NCBI GenBank assembly: GCA_947165295.1
Contig: CAMUZU010000017.1
Coordinates: forward strand, 1 to 45,993
DNA length: 45,993 nt
Origin: an uncultured Selenomonadales bacterium
GTDB taxonomy: Bacteria > Bacillota > Negativicutes > Selenomonadales > Selenomonadaceae
Direction of reading: 5' to 3'
Part shown: one piece after another, positions 14,362 through 24,437 of the stretch
Numbering within the stretch: position 1 is the first letter of the stretch
Layout: each line of letters starts with the position of its first letter
Made by a program: the position numbers and the translations under genes
The notes under the pieces: model-generated
What the model was told of the DNA's origin: nothing
The model's database searches: none
The model's input: only the letters and a program-made list of their open reading frames with translations

Positions 14362-14390
14362 TTGCAACGCGTCATGAAATTTGTTAAAGT
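14362..14390 (+). promoter_or_regulatory. Promoter of the partner-switch operon
   Basis: TTGCAA (14362-14367), 17-base spacer, TAAAGT (14385-14390), followed by AAAGGAGG at 14401-14408, nine bases before the first start codon. Confidence 0.6.
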
Positions 14391-14417
14391 TGCCCGCGAC
14401 AAAGGAGGCGTTTTATC

Positions 14418-15620
14418 TTGAAGTTTGAAAGCAGCAACAGCGTCTTGACCGTCTACTTGGAAGGCGATCTGGACGCACAAAACGCAAGTTCGGTTCAAGC
14501 AGAAATTGAGGCGGCGCAAAAAGCTCACCCCGGCGACAACATTTTGTTCGACGCGGAAAATCTTCGTTACATTTCCAGCGCGGGACTTCGCGTCTTGCTC
14601 AAATTCGTTCGTGCCGCCAAAGGCAAGGAAGTTGTCATCCAAAATGTTTCCCGCGACGTGTACGACGTGCTTGAACTTACGCGTTTCGTCGACCTCATGA
14701 CCGTAAAAAAAAAATTGCGTGAAATAAGCATCGACGGTTGCGAAGTCATCGGCAAAGGCCGCAGCAGTTCCGTTTACCGCACAGACCCCGAAACGATCGT
14801 CAAGCTTTACACCGACGGCGTTCCGCTCGAAAAAATCGAACAGGAAATTGACCTTGCGAAAAAAGCTTTCGTCGTCGGAATTCCCACGGCGATTTCGTAT
14901 GACCTCGTGCGTTGCGGCGACGTTTACGGCGTTGTCTTTGAAATGATTGCTCACGCAGACACTGTCGGTCGCACAATCACCGCGCACCCCGACCAATTCG
15001 ACGAGATTACGGAAAAATTCGTTGCGACGTACAAAATCATTCACTCGACCGACATAAAAGAATTCGGCGGCTTCCAATCGCTCAAAGAAACTTGGCACAA
15101 ATGGGCGGACGGCATGTCGACGGCTTTCACGGCGGACGAAACGGCTTTGCTTCACAAGATGATTGACGTTATCCCCGAACGCTCGACAATGGTTCACTGC
15201 GACTTTCACGCGGGCAACGTCATGTATCAGGAAGGTCAAATCGTCGTCATTGACATGGCGGACATCGGCTACGGTCACCCGATTTTCGACTTGGCGGGCA
15301 ATGCTTTCCACGCAAGATACAGCGGTTCGGCGACGCGCCAAAAAGTTCACGGCATGACGCAGGAAAACATGTTGCGCTTCTGGGACAAGCTGTTGACGAC
15401 CTACTTCAACATCAAAGACGACGAAACACTTGCCAAAGTCAAAGAAATGTGCGACGCTTTCGGACTGCTTCGCGGCGCGCTGTTCCCAATGAAACACCGT
15501 CAAATTGCGCCCGAATTGAAGGCTTTCCACGTCGAAGAAACGCGCAAGAATCTTTTCCCGCGCATTGATTGGGCACTTGCCGAGGCAGCTCGTCTCGACG
15601 AATATTTTGCCAAAGTTTAA
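14418..15620 (+). CDS. STAS domain fused to an aminoglycoside-phosphotransferase-like kinase
   Basis: A 400-residue fusion. Residues 1-98 form a STAS (anti-sigma-factor antagonist) domain; YISSAGLRVLL at 51-61 is the conserved phospho-acceptor loop, with S53/S54 near the site modified in SpoIIAA and RsbV. Residues 104-400 form an APH-type small-molecule kinase: glycine-rich GKGRSSSVYR (112-121), ATP lysine K129, catalytic HCDFHAGN (H260, D262, N267) and metal aspartates D279/D282 (VIDMADIG). I take it to resemble the TIGR02172 paralogous family. TTG start follows AAAGGAGG. It is first in an operon with a HATPase-like/SDF fusion and a PP2C phosphatase. The kinase substrate is unknown; a protein substrate is possible. 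Confidence 0.85.
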   Translation: MKFESSNSVLTVYLEGDLDAQNASSVQAEIEAAQKAHPGDNILFDAENLRYISSAGLRVLLKFVRAAKGKEVVIQNVSRDVYDVLELTRFVDLMTVKKKLREISIDGCEVIGKGRSSSVYRTDPETIVKLYTDGVPLEKIEQEIDLAKKAFVVGIPTAISYDLVRCGDVYGVVFEMIAHADTVGRTITAHPDQFDEITEKFVATYKIIHSTDIKEFGGFQSLKETWHKWADGMSTAFTADETALLHKMIDVIPERSTMVHCDFHAGNVMYQEGQIVVIDMADIGYGHPIFDLAGNAFHARYSGSATRQKVHGMTQENMLRFWDKLLTTYFNIKDDETLAKVKEMCDAFGLLRGALFPMKHRQIAPELKAFHVEETRKNLFPRIDWALAEAARLDEYFAKV

Positions 15621-15632
15621 GGAGGTTTCAAC

Positions 15633-17258
15633 ATGGTCGAATTGACCATGCACAACCTGTCCGACACCAGACAACTTTTGACTGCTGAACTGCAAAAGAC
15701 CAAAGCCACCGAAAAAGAAATTGCACGCGCAAAGTTGCTTCTGGAAGAAACATTCATCAGACTGAAAACCGGCATGGGCAACCTGCCGGATTTTTCTGTG
15801 AAAGTTTACTTGAAGGTCAGGTTCGGCGAAGTTAATCTGCGCATGGTTGCTCGCGGCGAAGAATACGACCCGATTGTCACGCTCACCGAACAGAGCACCG
15901 ACGACGAAAACGTTTACCGCTTGGTTATCCTCAAGGCGTTCCGCGACAAGATGAGTTTCGTGCGCAAGAACGGCGAAAACATCGTGACAATCACCGTTCA
16001 CGAAACAAGCTCGGCGCAAAAGCAAATGATTTATACAATCGCCGCGCTTTTCCTCGGAATTGTTGTCGGTTTTGCAATGCAATTCGGTTTGGACGCCGAA
16101 ACAATCAATATGCTCAACACGGAGTTTATCAGTCCCGTGCGCCGTGTCTTTTTGAACGCCTTGCAAATGATGGTTGCGCCCGTGACGTTCCTGGCGATCA
16201 TTTCGGGAATAACCAACATGTCCGACGCCGTCGACATCGGCAAAGTCGGCTCAAAGTTGGTGTTCACGTCGGTTTTAATGGTCGCGCTCGTGACGCTTTG
16301 CAGTTTGGGAGTCAGCTTCCTCGTCTTCAGCGGCGATTTGTCTTACCTGCAGTCGGCAATTCAAACGGGCGGCGAACAAACCGCGTCGCAATACGGCTCG
16401 CTTAAAGACATGATTTTCGACATCGTGCCGGACAATCTGGTTGACCCGCTCAAAGGCAAAAAAATTCTGCAGGTCTTGTTCCTGGCAATTTTCTTCGGCA
16501 TCGTCCTCAACCGCATGGGCGAAAAAGCTCGCGGCGCAACGGAAACTTTGGACTTCCTGTTTAAGTTCACCGTCGGCGTGCTGAAAATAATCGTCAAGGC
16601 AATTCCGCTGATTGTTTTCCTGTCAATGGCGTCACTTCTTGCGAACACGGGTATTGATTCGATTTTGACGTTCAGTCGGCTGTTCGTCGGGTTGGCGGTC
16701 GGGGTAATTTTCGTTTGGCTCGTCAACGGGCTTGCCACGCTGTTGATTGGAAAAATTTCGCCGATTAAGATTGTAAAAAAACTTGTCGCGTATGCGCCGA
16801 TGCCGTTCACCATTTCGAGTTCGGGGCCGCGCCTGCCGTTCGACTTGCAATTCTGCACGGACAAGTTGGGCATTGATCCGAAGATTGTTTCGTTTTTGAT
16901 TCCCGTCGGCATACAGCTCAACAAGGCGGGGCAAGGCGTTTACTTTTCGCTGGTGACCGTCATGTTGATGAGCGTCTACCAAATCGAAGTGACGACAAAC
17001 CTGCTGATAACGCTGTACTTTTCGCTGGTGATAATGTCGATGGCAAAACCGTCAATTCCTTGCGGCGGGATAATTTGCTTGAGCTATCTGTTTTTGACGG
17101 TCGGAGTACCGGCTGAAGCCGTGACTTTGATTCTGTGCATTGACCCGATAGCCACAATGTTTAACGCCATTTGCAACGCAAGCACGAACATTACTTCGAC
17201 GCTTATCGTGGCAAATTCGCTCAACCTCGTCAACAAAGAACAGTATTTTGCAGACTGA
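15633..17258 (+). CDS. HATPase-like (RsbW-type) domain fused to an SDF-family transporter-like domain
   Basis: A 541-residue membrane protein. Residues 1-125 resemble an RsbW-type GHKL domain (ARAKLLLEETFIRLK for the N-box helix, ARGEEYDP, and a last strand RKNGENIVTITV), but the Mg-binding Asn of the N-box and the glycine-rich G boxes are not conserved, so it may bind a partner without kinase activity. Residues 132-541 have the dicarboxylate/amino acid:cation symporter fold with both re-entrant hairpins (SSSGPRLP at 395-402; PSIPCGGIICL). The NMDGT motif reads NKAGQ (430-434). The TM8 DxxxDxxRTxxNxxGD pattern keeps the first Asp (504) and an Asn, but lacks the second Asp, the Arg and the last Asp. 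ATG after AAGGAGG. Confidence 0.75.
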   Translation: MVELTMHNLSDTRQLLTAELQKTKATEKEIARAKLLLEETFIRLKTGMGNLPDFSVKVYLKVRFGEVNLRMVARGEEYDPIVTLTEQSTDDENVYRLVILKAFRDKMSFVRKNGENIVTITVHETSSAQKQMIYTIAALFLGIVVGFAMQFGLDAETINMLNTEFISPVRRVFLNALQMMVAPVTFLAIISGITNMSDAVDIGKVGSKLVFTSVLMVALVTLCSLGVSFLVFSGDLSYLQSAIQTGGEQTASQYGSLKDMIFDIVPDNLVDPLKGKKILQVLFLAIFFGIVLNRMGEKARGATETLDFLFKFTVGVLKIIVKAIPLIVFLSMASLLANTGIDSILTFSRLFVGLAVGVIFVWLVNGLATLLIGKISPIKIVKKLVAYAPMPFTISSSGPRLPFDLQFCTDKLGIDPKIVSFLIPVGIQLNKAGQGVYFSLVTVMLMSVYQIEVTTNLLITLYFSLVIMSMAKPSIPCGGIICLSYLFLTVGVPAEAVTLILCIDPIATMFNAICNASTNITSTLIVANSLNLVNKEQYFAD

Positions 17259-17273
17259 ACGGGCGTCAAAGTC

Positions 17274-19460
17274 ATGAACGAATTTAAAACGCTTATCGAA
17301 GGTCTTCTCGGCCGACGGAAACTCAACATTTATCAACGCGTCCTGCGGCTGGCACTTCTGGGCAGCTTGTTGACGTTCGCGGTAATGAGCGGGCTTTACG
17401 TTTACGCCATCTTCACAATCAACGGCACGTTGCGCGAACAGACAATCGAGTTGAGTGACACGGTCTTTGCGTACATTGAAGACGAGATGAACGAGCAAGT
17501 CAAACTGCGCATGACCGAAACGACGCAGATGCGGTCGTATCTTATTAACCTTGAACTTGAAAACGCCGTAAAAGACGTTCAGTGGCTCAGCGACTTCGTT
17601 TCAATGAACTTGAAACATCCCGAACAGCACATGCCGCACACGTTGCCAAACGCGCTTTATGAAGACGTTTATTCGGGCACGCCGTACATTTTCTTCAGCC
17701 CGGAACTTGTCGCACGCGGCGTCGACGAAAATATTTCCCGCGAAATCGGCGTTGCTTCCGCCTGTGAAGATTTGCTTTTGACAATGAGCAACCAATACGA
17801 CTGCATTGTCGTCGCGTCGAAGAACGGCTACGTTATCCGCATTGACAAATTGCCCGACGAAAATTCACTCGTGCCGCTGTGCAATGAGCCGCTGAAAAGT
17901 TCCTACGACTCGCGCAAACGCAATTGGTACCTGCAGGGCGAAAAAGTTTCCGCGCCGATTTTCACCGACCTGTACAGCTCCTCGACGACCGGCGAACCTT
18001 GCGTTTCGATTTTGATGCCGTACTACGACAACGACGGCATTGCGGGCGTAATCGGTCTGGACGTCAGCCCGAATGACATTTACAAACAAGTCAACGCTTC
18101 GTCGCTTGAAGGGCGCGACACAATTTTTGTCCTCGGCAAGAACGGCGAAGTGCTTTTCTCCACAAGCAAAGACGAAGACTTGACGCCGTATATTCTTGAC
18201 CGCGATCTTCGCAACGACGACGATGTAACTTTGGCGCAGGCGGCTCGACGCATGGTTGACGGCGAACAGGACATTGCGGAAGTCGACATTGACGGCAATA
18301 AATATTTTCTTGCCTTCGCGCCGCTGAAGTCAATCGGTTGGAGTTTCGGCACGCTCATTGACCAAAGCAAAGTTCACTTGGTCGGCGAACAAGTCAAGGA
18401 AGATGTCGGCGAATACGTTAGCGGTTACTCGAACTTTCTGGAGAGCTTCCTGTTCAAAGTTTCGGCGGCGTCGCTGTTTATCGTGGCGATTATCTTCGCC
18501 GTGCTGTTCCGTCGCAGTCTCCGTGATTCGGCGGGCTTCGTCGAACCGATTCACAGCTTGATTGACGGCGTACAGGAAGTTGCGGGCGGCAACCTCGACA
18601 AGAAAATCGAAATTCACACGGGCGACGAAATTGAATTGCTTGCCGACAACTTCAATCACATGACGGGCGAACTTTCCGCGCTGATGAAAAATCTTGCCGC
18701 AAAGACCGCTGCCGCCGAACGCACGAAGACCGAACTTGCCGTTGCGACGAAAATTCAGGAAGGCATGTTGCCGACAAATTTTCCCGTGCGCGACGAATTC
18801 AATCTTTATGCCTCAATGACACCCGCAAAGGCCGTCGGCGGCGACTTCTACGACTTTTACTTTCTTGACAAAGATCACTTCGTCATAACGATTGCCGACG
18901 TTTCGGATAAAGGCGTGCCCGCCGCGCTGTTCATGGTCATGGCGAAAACTTTGCTCAAAGACAACATTTTGACGAGCGGCAAGCCCGAAAACATTTCCGA
19001 CGTCATGCGCGACACGAACAACGAACTTTGCGACAACAACGAAGCCGACATGTTCGTCACGCTGTTTACCGCGATAATCGAACTGTCGACGGGCGAAATG
19101 ACTTTCGTCAACGCGGGACACAATCCGCCGTTCGTTCGCCGCAACAAAAAGTTTTCTTCGTTGGGCGTGGCGCAAAGCCCGATTTTCGGCACGTTGCCCG
19201 GCTTAAAGTTCCCGTCGAAAAAAATTCAACTTCATGACGGCGACGCGATTTTTCTGTACACCGACGGCGTGACCGAGGCAATGGACGACAAGCGCGAACT
19301 TTTCGGCGAAGAACGTTTGCAAGTCGTGCTTGACAAATTGTCCGACGAAGAAGCCGCCGAAAAAATTCTTTCGGATGTCAACGCGGCAGTGAAAAGTTTC
19401 GTCGGCGACGCGCAACAATCCGACGATATAACGATGCTTGCGTTCGTCCTTCGCGGTTGA
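17274..19460 (+). CDS. Membrane sensor phosphatase: dCache, HAMP, SpoIIE-type PP2C
   Basis: A 728-residue sensor phosphatase. TM1 spans about 23-47, then an extracytoplasmic double-Cache-like sensor (about 50-390; SSYDSRKRNWYLQG and GVIGLDVSPNDIY are typical Cache segments). TM2 is about 394-412, a HAMP domain about 413-470, a short coiled coil, and a PP2C/SpoIIE domain 500-728. The catalytic metal aspartates are present: GGDFYDF (D524), ADVSDKG (D542) and QSDDITM near the end, so it should dephosphorylate Ser/Thr on a STAS partner. The only STAS protein visible is the operon's first gene. Start is ATG at 17274, with weak GGGCG. A bidirectional terminator follows. Confidence 0.9.
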   Translation: MNEFKTLIEGLLGRRKLNIYQRVLRLALLGSLLTFAVMSGLYVYAIFTINGTLREQTIELSDTVFAYIEDEMNEQVKLRMTETTQMRSYLINLELENAVKDVQWLSDFVSMNLKHPEQHMPHTLPNALYEDVYSGTPYIFFSPELVARGVDENISREIGVASACEDLLLTMSNQYDCIVVASKNGYVIRIDKLPDENSLVPLCNEPLKSSYDSRKRNWYLQGEKVSAPIFTDLYSSSTTGEPCVSILMPYYDNDGIAGVIGLDVSPNDIYKQVNASSLEGRDTIFVLGKNGEVLFSTSKDEDLTPYILDRDLRNDDDVTLAQAARRMVDGEQDIAEVDIDGNKYFLAFAPLKSIGWSFGTLIDQSKVHLVGEQVKEDVGEYVSGYSNFLESFLFKVSAASLFIVAIIFAVLFRRSLRDSAGFVEPIHSLIDGVQEVAGGNLDKKIEIHTGDEIELLADNFNHMTGELSALMKNLAAKTAAAERTKTELAVATKIQEGMLPTNFPVRDEFNLYASMTPAKAVGGDFYDFYFLDKDHFVITIADVSDKGVPAALFMVMAKTLLKDNILTSGKPENISDVMRDTNNELCDNNEADMFVTLFTAIIELSTGEMTFVNAGHNPPFVRRNKKFSSLGVAQSPIFGTLPGLKFPSKKIQLHDGDAIFLYTDGVTEAMDDKRELFGEERLQVVLDKLSDEEAAEKILSDVNAAVKSFVGDAQQSDDITMLAFVLRG

Positions 19461-19467
19461 TGTCAAC

Positions 19468-19507
19468 AAAAAATCCCGGCAGTCTTCGTGACCGTCGGGA
19501 TTTTTTT
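19468..19507. terminator. Bidirectional terminator
   Basis: A6 run, TCCCGGCAGTC-TTCGT-GACCGTCGGGA hairpin, T7 run. It ends the PP2C operon and the convergent minus-strand gene; its core is identical to the terminator at 11842-11882. Confidence 0.88.
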
Positions 19508-22640: not shown

Positions 22641-24437
22641 TCAGTGCTGCCGACAGCGGAAGCCTTGACCGTCGTCGCGAACTTCGTACACGTCGGGGAA
22701 CGCCTCAATGAATTTGCGCACGGACGAATAGCCGAAATCTTTCACGCCGAAGCCGAGATTTTTGTTTTTAATCGCCTCGCCCGCGTAATTGAGTGCCGCA
22801 AAGCCGTCGCCGTCCGCGTGAACTTTCCACGCCTCGCGCAAGATGTCATGCAGTTGAACGAGTCCGGCGTCGTCCGTGCGGCAACGGTAATAAAGCTTGT
22901 TGTCGACCTTGCGAATTTCGTAAAGTTTCGGAAACGCCTCAAGCAAAGGTTGCAACGCGTCGAAGCCGAAAGTTTTAACGTCGAGATGATTTTCTTTGAG
23001 TAAAGCACTTGCCCGACATAAATCCACGAAGCCCGTTTCGTCGCCGTGAAGTTTGACCGCCTCGCACAAAACTTCATGCGGTTGACGGAGCCGACCGTCG
23101 GAATTTTCGCGGCAACGGTAATAAAGCTTGTTGTCGACCTTGCGAATTTCGTAAAGTTTCGGGGACGCCGAAACGAAATTTCCCAGCGTGCCGTAACCCA
23201 AAGTTTTTACGTCGAGATTTTTTTTGCCGATAACGTCGCCCGCGTAACTTAAATCCGCAAAGCCCGTCGCGTCCGCATGAACTTTGGCCTCTTCGCGCAA
23301 GATGTCATGCAGTTGACCGTTTAAATCGGCGGAAGTTTTCGGCGCGTTCGTTCGACAGCGAATAAAAGCTTTGTCGTTGCTCCGTCGCAATTCGTACAGG
23401 TCGGGGAACGCCGCAATGAATTTTTGTAACGTAGCGTGACCGGTGTCCTTGAGCTTGAGCTTGAGCTTTTTTTTTCTGATGAAACTGCCGACGAAGCACA
23501 GATCCGCAAAGCCGGAAGTGTCGCCGTAAACTTTGGTCGCCTCGCGCAGAGCGTCATGAAATTGACTGACGGCTTTGTCCTGCGGCGAAGTTTTGTCGGC
23601 GGGAGTTTGCGTGCGACAACGGAAGCAGTAATTTTCTCCGTTCGTGCGGTGAATCAATTCGTAAAGTTTCGGAAACGCCTTGACGAACGCTTGAAACGAA
23701 CTGTAACCGGTCTGCTTTATGCCGAAGCCGAAATTTTTTGTGCGCAAGGTTTGTCCCGCCCAACAAAGAGGCGCGAAACCTTTGGCGTCGCCGTGCGTTT
23801 TGGCAACTTCGCTCAAAAGTTCGTGCACGCGTTGAATTCGTTTGTCGCGTTCGCTTTGCAGTTGACGTTCGCTAATCGGGACGACTTTGGGCTTTGCGAC
23901 GACGGGCGCAATTTTCGCGACGGGCTGAACTTTTGCGACGGTTGCGGCAACTTTCGGCGTGGAAATTTTTTCCGACGTCTTAAGCCCGACGAGTTGAATT
24001 TTTTCGACGGCGGGCGCGTCCAAGTCGATAAACTCACTGCACGCCATGCGGAAAGCGTTGGCGGCTTGCCCGTTGCCCAAGCCGATGACGGTCATTCCGC
24101 CTTCGCGAAGACGAATCGCAAGCGGCGTGAAGTCGCTGTCGTTTGACACAAGCGCGAAAATGTCCGCCTGTCGACCGTAAAGCACGTCCATTGCGTCAAT
24201 CGTCAACGACATGTCGGTTGCGTTCTTGCCCGCGCAAAAGTCGGTTTGTTGCACGGCGCGCAACGAAAAATTCAGGATGCATTCGTTCCAGCCGTGAAGA
24301 GTATTTTTTTCCCAGTTGCCGTAAATCCTCCGAATAAAAATTTCGCCGCGGGCAGTCAGCGCGTCGATAATTTGCTTGCCGAACTTAGCCGAAACGTTGT
24401 CGGCGTCGATAAACAGCGCGATTTTCTTGTCTGCCAT
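22641..24437 (-). CDS. NYN-domain ribonuclease-like protein with five OST-HTH (LOTUS) repeats
   Basis: A 598-residue protein. Residues 1-150 form a NYN/PIN-like nuclease domain (LabA/DUF88 type): FIDADNV with D11 and D13, NATDMSLTIDAMD with D75, and SNDSDFTPLA with D100 and D102, giving the acidic metal site expected of an active nuclease. A Val/Pro/Lys linker (about 150-195) follows. Then come five tandem OST-HTH repeats at roughly 202-275, 291-362, 374-443, 451-520 and 527-597, each ending in a YRCR-like segment. Repeats 3 and 4 share a 54-bp identical stretch. OST-HTH domains are linked to RNA binding. It is downstream of two small genes; no target is known. Confidence 0.85.
   Translation of the reverse strand: MADKKIALFIDADNVSAKFGKQIIDALTARGEIFIRRIYGNWEKNTLHGWNECILNFSLRAVQQTDFCAGKNATDMSLTIDAMDVLYGRQADIFALVSNDSDFTPLAIRLREGGMTVIGLGNGQAANAFRMACSEFIDLDAPAVEKIQLVGLKTSEKISTPKVAATVAKVQPVAKIAPVVAKPKVVPISERQLQSERDKRIQRVHELLSEVAKTHGDAKGFAPLCWAGQTLRTKNFGFGIKQTGYSSFQAFVKAFPKLYELIHRTNGENYCFRCRTQTPADKTSPQDKAVSQFHDALREATKVYGDTSGFADLCFVGSFIRKKKLKLKLKDTGHATLQKFIAAFPDLYELRRSNDKAFIRCRTNAPKTSADLNGQLHDILREEAKVHADATGFADLSYAGDVIGKKNLDVKTLGYGTLGNFVSASPKLYEIRKVDNKLYYRCRENSDGRLRQPHEVLCEAVKLHGDETGFVDLCRASALLKENHLDVKTFGFDALQPLLEAFPKLYEIRKVDNKLYYRCRTDDAGLVQLHDILREAWKVHADGDGFAALNYAGEAIKNKNLGFGVKDFGYSSVRKFIEAFPDVYEVRDDGQGFRCRQH
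22878..23162. repeat. 54-bp exact direct repeats inside the OST-HTH gene
   Basis: 22878-22931 and 23109-23162 are identical over 54 bases (start GCGGCAACGGTAATAAAGCT on plus), 231 bases (77 codons) apart. They encode the end of repeats 4 and 3, pointing to recent duplication or gene conversion. Confidence 0.9.

Follow-up and report, generated by a model that had tools for sequence, protein, structure and literature searches.

A STAS-APH kinase, a pseudo-GHKL-SLC1 membrane protein and a dCache receptor phosphatase encoded together in a Selenomonadaceae genome: a candidate partner switch with a transporter-like output

Introduction

What might a bacterial partner switch control when no sigma factor is encoded with it? 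This question is raised by a three-gene locus on contig CAMUZU010000017.1 of an uncultured Selenomonadales bacterium (assembly GCA_947165295.1), positions 1 to 45,993 of which constitute the window analyzed here, 45,993 nucleotides in length. Three intact genes occupy 5.0 kb of the window, all on the + strand and separated by intergenic gaps of only 12 and 15 nt, and they encode a STAS domain fused to an APH-type kinase, an SDF/SLC1 membrane protein with an additional N-terminal domain, and a receptor that ends in a SpoIIE/RsbU-type PP2C phosphatase. A sequence-only reading of this DNA had proposed this domain make-up including both fusions, and Pfam, profile-profile and fold comparisons bear it out; it had also stated that no sigma factor gene is present, which holds for the three genes, to which our scan was confined. 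The chances appear about even that the locus constitutes a partner-switching module with a membrane transporter, or a transporter-like receptor, as its output instead of a sigma factor. Support for such a reading comes from a GHKL fold that has lost its ATP-binding residues, from constant linkage of STAS to the SDF gene within its clade, from related gene sets that do without APH, from a parallel in MATE carriers, from HATPases available in trans and from an amino acid motif in the receptor. The genes and their domains are as follows.

14418-15620, + strand: gene 1, STAS-APH kinase, 400 amino acids, TTG start
14418..14723, + strand: STAS domain, residues 1-102 (Pfam E 4.8e-14), with Ser54 in ISSAGLR as presumed phosphosite
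14724..15620, + strand: APH-type kinase domain including stop (Pfam E 9.3e-16)
15633-17258, + strand: gene 2, N-terminal 128-residue domain plus complete SDF/SLC1, 541 amino acids
15633..16016, + strand: residues 1-128, a degenerate anti-sigma-kinase-like (pseudo-GHKL) domain with Arg43 in place of the N-box Asn
16023..17258, + strand: SDF/SLC1 membrane domain including stop, of a distinct clade (Pfam E 1e-66; alignments)
17274-19460, + strand: gene 3, dCache-HAMP-PP2C (SpoIIE/RsbU type), 728 amino acids
17274..18743, + strand: receptor part, dCache_1 (Pfam E 1.6e-22) then HAMP (Pfam E 5.8e-12)
18744..19460, + strand: SpoIIE/RsbU-type PP2C phosphatase domain (PF07228, E 8e-46)

Results

A degenerate N-terminal GHKL domain in the SDF protein

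Single-sequence Pfam searches match the N-terminal part of the gene 2 product to HATPases at E 0.15 within the full protein and at E 0.0074 when a 134-residue fragment is used, with 8 of 20 relatives matching at E<=1. Comparison with canonical HATPases by hhalign gives 98%, and an AlphaFold model of the domain (pLDDT 91) has SpoIIAB, UsfX and RsbW as its best matches in a fold search of the PDB, so that profile and model both place a GHKL fold in anti-sigma layout at this position. The HATPase-like identity proposed earlier thus withstands the test set for it, as the profile-profile and fold comparisons agree with one another and rule out an unrelated fold. A search of PDB sequences by hmmsearch with the pseudo-GHKL profile returned only YjgH, at E 0.54.

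The Asn of the N-box (E-x3-N) serves Mg-ATP. Among 40 pseudo-GHKL copies chosen from the window and loci L152-L205 it is replaced by Arg in 39 and by Leu in the remaining one, while the Asp of the G1 box is present in 0 of 40; HATP-bearing loci (L155, L165, L166, L175, L177, L181, L184, L189, L193, L196, L197, L206 and L208) were left out of this set. A second set of 42 copies, which overlaps the first, has the N-box Arg in 38/42 and the G1 Asp in 0/42, and retains the three glycines of the G2 box in 1/42, 0/42 and 0/42 copies, respectively. The role of an RsbW-type kinase that had been ascribed to this region is consequently not borne out, and gene 2 is rejected on sequence grounds as the source of an active RsbW kinase, as the N-box, G1 and G2 residues are gone. 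Judged by these residues the N-terminal domain is a pseudo-kinase fused to a transporter-like protein, which leaves the operon without a GHKL kinase for its STAS domain. Since the anti-sigma fold is retained according to profile and model but the ATP-binding residues are gone, the domain is most likely a receiver.

The STAS domain and the APH kinase

Fold comparison of a model of the STAS domain gives SpoIIAA as best structural match, in entries 1th8 and 1til. SpoIIAA and SpoIIAB, the latter a match of the pseudo-GHKL domain, are partners in these same crystal entries. Ser54, which we take to be the counterpart of the phosphorylatable Ser58 of SpoIIAA, is kept in at least 90% of 16 STAS-APH sequences (L107 differs) and also in loci L157, L158, L159 and L161. 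In the same 16 sequences the APH catalytic residues K129, H260, D262, N267 (HxDxxxxN) and D279 are invariant. Fold comparison of the APH part ranks small-molecule kinases highest, namely choline/ethanolamine, aminoglycoside, macrolide and methylthioribose kinases; the STAS-APH model was built on six sequences, with the best of five models at 81.4 and the other four at 60-67. From its residues and predicted fold, the APH domain looks active but of small-molecule kinase type. The STAS-APH junction contains a run of ten A residues (window 14705-14714). L152 and L103 have fewer, and in both the STAS domain is followed by a stop. A long antisense open reading frame also crosses genes 1 and 2, both of which are recovered by a codon-based gene caller.

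Recurrence of the gene set in related genomes

Search loci, genomes and contigs are designated by L, G and C numbers, with G000 being the window's genome. The gene order of the window occurs in four genomes of the genus including the window's own, the others being G054 (L099=L152), G050 (L091=L156) and G076 (L103). The check for the three-gene order in related genomes that the sequence-only reading had asked for therefore came out positive, in G076 without the APH, and chance neighbors or a set restricted to a single genome are ruled out by this recurrence. In each of these three genomes at least one gene of the copy has a broken reading frame.

A clade of 12 loci was defined by SDF identity to the window of at least 50%, with 11 of the 12 retrieved by SDF or N-domain queries and L100 via STAS-APH. 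STAS adjoins SDF in all 12 of these loci, so STAS and transporter are the constant pair within the clade. APH is at least partly present in 11/12 and is intact in one open reading frame in the window, L100, L154, L157, L158, L159 and L161. The pseudo-GHKL domain is found in 8/12, being absent from L157, L158, L159 and L161, and a dCache-PP2C gene lies in the same locus in 7/12, the contigs of L153 and L159 being too short for a verdict on PP2C. One order is shared by the window, L152, L156 and L103, while the set is reordered in other Selenomonadaceae, with dCache-PP2C, STAS-APH, pseudo-GHKL-SDF in L100, L154 and L155; L102 has dCache-PP2C followed by STAS-APH in a record that ends ahead of any SDF.

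The APH part of the fusion has been damaged repeatedly. A DNA alignment reveals several separate deletions in L152, one deletion together with a stop in L156, and complete loss of APH in L103, with STAS still readable in all three. Ratios of nonsynonymous to synonymous substitution (dN/dS) for STAS against the window are 0.12 (L152), 0.17 (L156) and 0.09 (L103), and the remaining APH pieces have an equally low value of 0.10, which points to recent APH losses in L152 and L156. The SDF and dCache frames are also broken in L156 and L103. This pattern is weak evidence that the switch may outlive the kinase; alternatively, it may reflect decay of the whole operon.

Loci L157, L158, L159 and L161, among them three named Prevotella, contain a two-gene STAS-APH and SDF unit that is observed in rumen Prevotella metagenome-assembled genomes. 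L157 is >99% identical to L158 and L159 over the two genes, and these three are accordingly counted as one lineage; in L157 and L158 the SDF gene begins 5 nt past STAS-APH. Identity of the genes in the four loci to those of the window is 68% for APH, 41% for STAS and 51-55% for SDF, making APH the best conserved part. A unit with this APH identity in Prevotella suggests transfer between phyla, unless the contigs were misbinned.

Sets without APH are found in loci termed Schwartzia-like by their N-domain sequence. Free STAS, dCache-PP2C and pseudo-GHKL-SDF genes occur together in L172 and L188 with APH not in the locus, the same APH-less set is more loosely spaced in L167 and L175, and L170 has STAS and pseudo-GHKL-SDF only; Pfam confirms the STAS of each of these five loci. 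L167 belongs to the type strain Schwartzia succinivorans DSM 10502, in which pseudo-GHKL-SDF, dCache-PP2C and STAS genes lie within 5 kb, so the arrangement can be tested in a cultured organism.

An N-domain query found matches at E<=0.001 in 36 of 66 genomes of the genus, a few of these being stand-alone HATPases or fragments, and full-length pseudo-GHKL-SDF fusions recur in other genera as well (Schwartzia, Anaerovibrio and one Synergistales record). Several copies occupy other surroundings. In L033:7308-13641, L036, L038 and L006 the gene is flanked by HlyD-type and AcrB-type genes within an RND efflux operon, as called by Pfam for L033 and for the HlyD of L036 and by blast cluster for the remainder. 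L037:7152-13147 has three tandem pseudo-GHKL-SDF genes beside glyA, with the motifs of SDF transmembrane helices (TM) 7 and 8 lost. In the window's genome, two tandem copies follow a GH32 fructan-hydrolase-type gene (L028:2325-7111, G000:C20), the second of which is split by a stop.

A parallel in MATE carriers

In a second branch, STAS-APH is followed directly by a MATE carrier that ends in a HATPase_c_2 domain, with Pfam values in two cases of E 3.6e-9 and 1.5e-6. Searches for MATE-HATPase genes gave 20 loci, with flanks reaching at most 1.5 kb; in three of them, L231 (=L107), L234 and L243 (=L105), STAS-APH lies immediately next to the carrier, so that the parallel extends to three genomes. 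Two of the MATE-HATPase genes that adjoin STAS-APH have the following coordinates.

L105:8475-10235 (=L243): MATE-HATPase gene
L107:9449-11203 (=L231): MATE-HATPase gene

The N-box Asn and the G1 Asp are kept in 19/19 MATE-HATPase tails that were read, and the G2 box is reduced in most. As two carrier folds are thus attached to the same STAS-partner fold, each beside STAS-APH, contact between STAS and the GHKL domain would seem to be the point of the arrangement. The window's genome also has a MATE-HATPase gene with an internal stop at G000:C5 near 66007 (L142).

A clade of SDF proteins with altered motifs

SDF covers its full length in gene 2 (positions 5-386 of the 387 in PF00375, E 1e-66). 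The clade has a signature of RLP in hairpin 1, CGG in hairpin 2 and NKAG in TM7 (NKTG in L152), and the window protein has NKAG in TM7 and IDPIATMFNAICNASTN in TM8. Related carriers have N(M/L)DG in TM7 where this clade has NKAG, and TM8 of the clade is IDPIAAMFNGVCNESAN-like, without the Asp/Arg of ordinary members. The substrate-site residues NMDG(T) of TM7 and Asp/Arg of TM8, whose roles we assume from work on GltPh, are thus replaced in the window protein, which has NKAG and T/N. Rows L012, L017, L113, L114 and L026 (reference or frame-broken) failed to align and were ignored, and SDF_L140 was excluded from one alignment as it was in the wrong frame. With coupling and substrate residues changed, dicarboxylate transport is not to be assumed, and the distinct signature indicates a clade that either carries another solute or no longer transports.

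The receptor phosphatase

The PP2C domain has the motifs GGDFYD, ADVSDKG, TDGVTEA and SDDIT, as read from the sequence, which presumably form its metal site. In the dCache domain, residues Y211, R216, W218, Y219, Y234 and D263 are spaced as in the pocket of PctA, where we take W128 and Y144 to be further pocket positions. All six are also present in L099, L100, L154 and L155; elsewhere there is a stop at the Trp in L103 and a Ser in the last place in Schwartzia-like receptors, in a comparison that excludes L156. Amino acid pocket residues are given as Y121, R126 and Y129 for PctA, and as D173 in PctD numbering, in PMC10104139. A signaling route from the dCache domain to the membrane protein, as the sequence-only reading had proposed, is plausible.

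Candidate kinases for the STAS domain

With the pseudo-GHKL domain devoid of ATP-binding residues, re-phosphorylation of STAS would fall to another protein, either a canonical RsbW-like HATPase in trans or the APH. Contig C10 of the window's genome (G000:C10) has a canonical pair of STAS and HATPase genes as well as two genes for dCache-PP2C, and all of the 7 other genomes checked, including Prevotella, have at least one HATPase_c_2 match and at least five SpoIIE matches above cut-off. A candidate STAS kinase encoded elsewhere is therefore available in these genomes.

Operon boundaries and host

AGGAGG-type ribosome sites are seen ahead of genes 1 and 2 by reading the sequence. The signals that flank the operon are listed here.

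14402..14408, + strand: ribosome-binding site AAGGAGG upstream of the TTG at 14418, read from the sequence
19468..19505, + strand: intrinsic terminator, hairpin of -22 kcal/mol (z -3.64) followed by a T run

The hairpin was detected by folding, having been missed by a simple terminator scanner. Co-directional genes, short gaps and this hairpin uphold the operon-like layout with terminator claimed earlier. The promoter claimed along with it is unsupported, as a promoter scan upstream of gene 1 found no sigma-70 consensus. The window's genome, a draft of 2.5 Mb, is split over 110 contigs and 80% complete. Part of G042, a genome of the same genus, is identical in sequence to part of the Quinella sp. 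2Q5 record L179, which places 2Q5 in this genus, and the host of the window is probably a Quinella-type rumen member of the Selenomonadaceae. Elsewhere in the window, positions 22641-24437 (minus strand) encode a product with an NYN-type nuclease-like start and several similar repeats that by eye are possibly OST-HTH.

Discussion

A proposed partner switch at the membrane and its rivals

In the mechanism that we propose, the dCache receptor would bind an amino acid or similar solute outside the cell and activate its own PP2C domain, which, as known members of these families would lead one to expect, would dephosphorylate Ser54 in the STAS domain of STAS-APH. Once dephosphorylated, STAS would dock on the pseudo-GHKL domain that precedes SDF and faces the cytosol, where it may gate the membrane protein and bring the APH small-molecule kinase to the inner face. 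STAS would be re-phosphorylated by a canonical RsbW-like HATPase in trans, such as that of G000:C10, or by APH. A bolder version, which we regard as rather unlikely, is that the dead anti-sigma kinase domain permanently provides an SLC1-type carrier with a dock for STAS, an amino-acid-sensing receptor phosphatase timing when APH is clamped to the carrier. Such signal-switched transport-phosphorylation would have arisen separately with MATE carriers, in which the HATPase retains its main ATP-site residues.

A number of observations weigh against a partner switch acting on a transporter. L157, L158, L159 and L161 hold STAS-APH and SDF without pseudo-GHKL or PP2C in the locus, so the dock would not be the sole link between STAS and transporter. 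Only 17 of 51 N-domain loci (L152-L208) have a STAS, dCache or PP2C match in their flanks, a count for which flank lengths vary and STAS queries may miss divergent STAS, and mapped pseudo-GHKL-SDF copies are also found in RND-efflux, glyA and other contexts. APH is absent from L103, deleted or broken in L152 and L156, and frame-broken in L153 and L155. The dCache motif is present in the canonical C10 operon (L141) as well and is thus not special to the STAS-APH and pseudo-GHKL-SDF system. The SDF clade is without the usual sodium and substrate residues, which makes transport itself unsure, and the MATE-HATPase gene of L233 adjoins an APH gene without a STAS domain, which favors a core made up of kinase and carrier.

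This last arrangement leads to the main rival, which we likewise consider unlikely, in which transport is coupled to phosphorylation: SDF would move a hydroxylated amino-acid-like solute that APH, kept at the membrane through its STAS domain, phosphorylates, and partner switching would be optional. The two-gene loci related to Prevotella, the high conservation of APH within them, the STAS-less APH of L233 and the resemblance of the APH fold to small-molecule kinases all favor such coupling, but STAS and SDF genes remain recognizable where APH is lost or broken (L103, L152 and L156), L172 and L188 have a PP2C, STAS and transporter set without APH, and the canonical SDF substrate residues are changed. 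It seems improbable that APH is instead the STAS kinase, phosphorylating Ser54 in cis or trans in place of the lost GHKL activity with PP2C reversing the reaction. The loss of ATP-binding residues in the operon's GHKL domain, the retention of APH catalytic residues and the presence of enzyme and site on one chain are in keeping with this role, although the best fold matches of APH are small-molecule kinases, HATPase_c_2 proteins are available in trans, and STAS retains a low dN/dS (0.09-0.17) in loci with APH lost or damaged, a loss that may be recent.

More doubtful still is an SDF part that serves as a non-transporting membrane receptor and signals to STAS via the pseudo-GHKL domain. Replacement of NMDG/NLDG by NKAG/NKTG in TM7 and of the Asp/Arg in TM8 among aligned clade members, with a new conserved signature, is what such a receptor might exhibit, and the glyA-linked subfamily is without these motifs too. 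Strong conservation of the new signature also fits a new substrate, however, other SLC1 members vary at these sites and still transport, and the operon already has a receptor. If a partner switch does act on the SDF protein, it would provide fast, reversible control of transport at the protein level in rumen bacteria, and would be a clear example of a GHKL kinase turned pseudo-kinase receiver that has parallels in a second carrier fold.

Comparison with known systems

A comparable fusion was not recognized among the hits listed from the open-licence PMC literature, judged on titles and the starts of abstracts, and the term 'symporter' was not matched in passages of the Quinella genome paper (PMC9585023). 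The RsbU-RsbV-RsbW and SpoIIE-SpoIIAA-SpoIIAB systems use the same three families, PP2C, STAS with a conserved Ser and a GHKL anti-sigma fold. In the locus described here, by contrast, the GHKL part has lost its ATP residues and forms one chain with an SLC1 protein, STAS is joined to APH, and the three genes include no sigma factor. In the SiaABCD system of Pseudomonas aeruginosa (PMC7647112) the kinase SiaB is active and a diguanylate cyclase is the output, whereas the locus in the window has a GHKL domain that looks dead and a transporter-like protein as output. In SulP/SLC26 proteins (PMC8256260), STAS is part of the transporter itself; action of STAS at a membrane transporter is likewise proposed here, but STAS sits on a separate kinase and the transporter bears the STAS-partner fold. 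The window protein has the whole SDF fold by profile, like the SLC1/SDF carriers GltPh, DctA and GltP, from which it differs by an additional N-terminal pseudo-GHKL domain and altered TM7 and TM8 motifs. In the MATE-HATPase_c_2 loci L231 (=L107), L234 and L243 (=L105), STAS-APH also lies beside a transporter fused to a GHKL domain, although there the carrier is a MATE protein and the HATPase is C-terminal and retains the Asn of the N-box and the Asp of G1. Partner switching is thus known for transcription and, in SiaABCD, for a signaling enzyme, while here it would apparently act on a carrier and a metabolite-type kinase.

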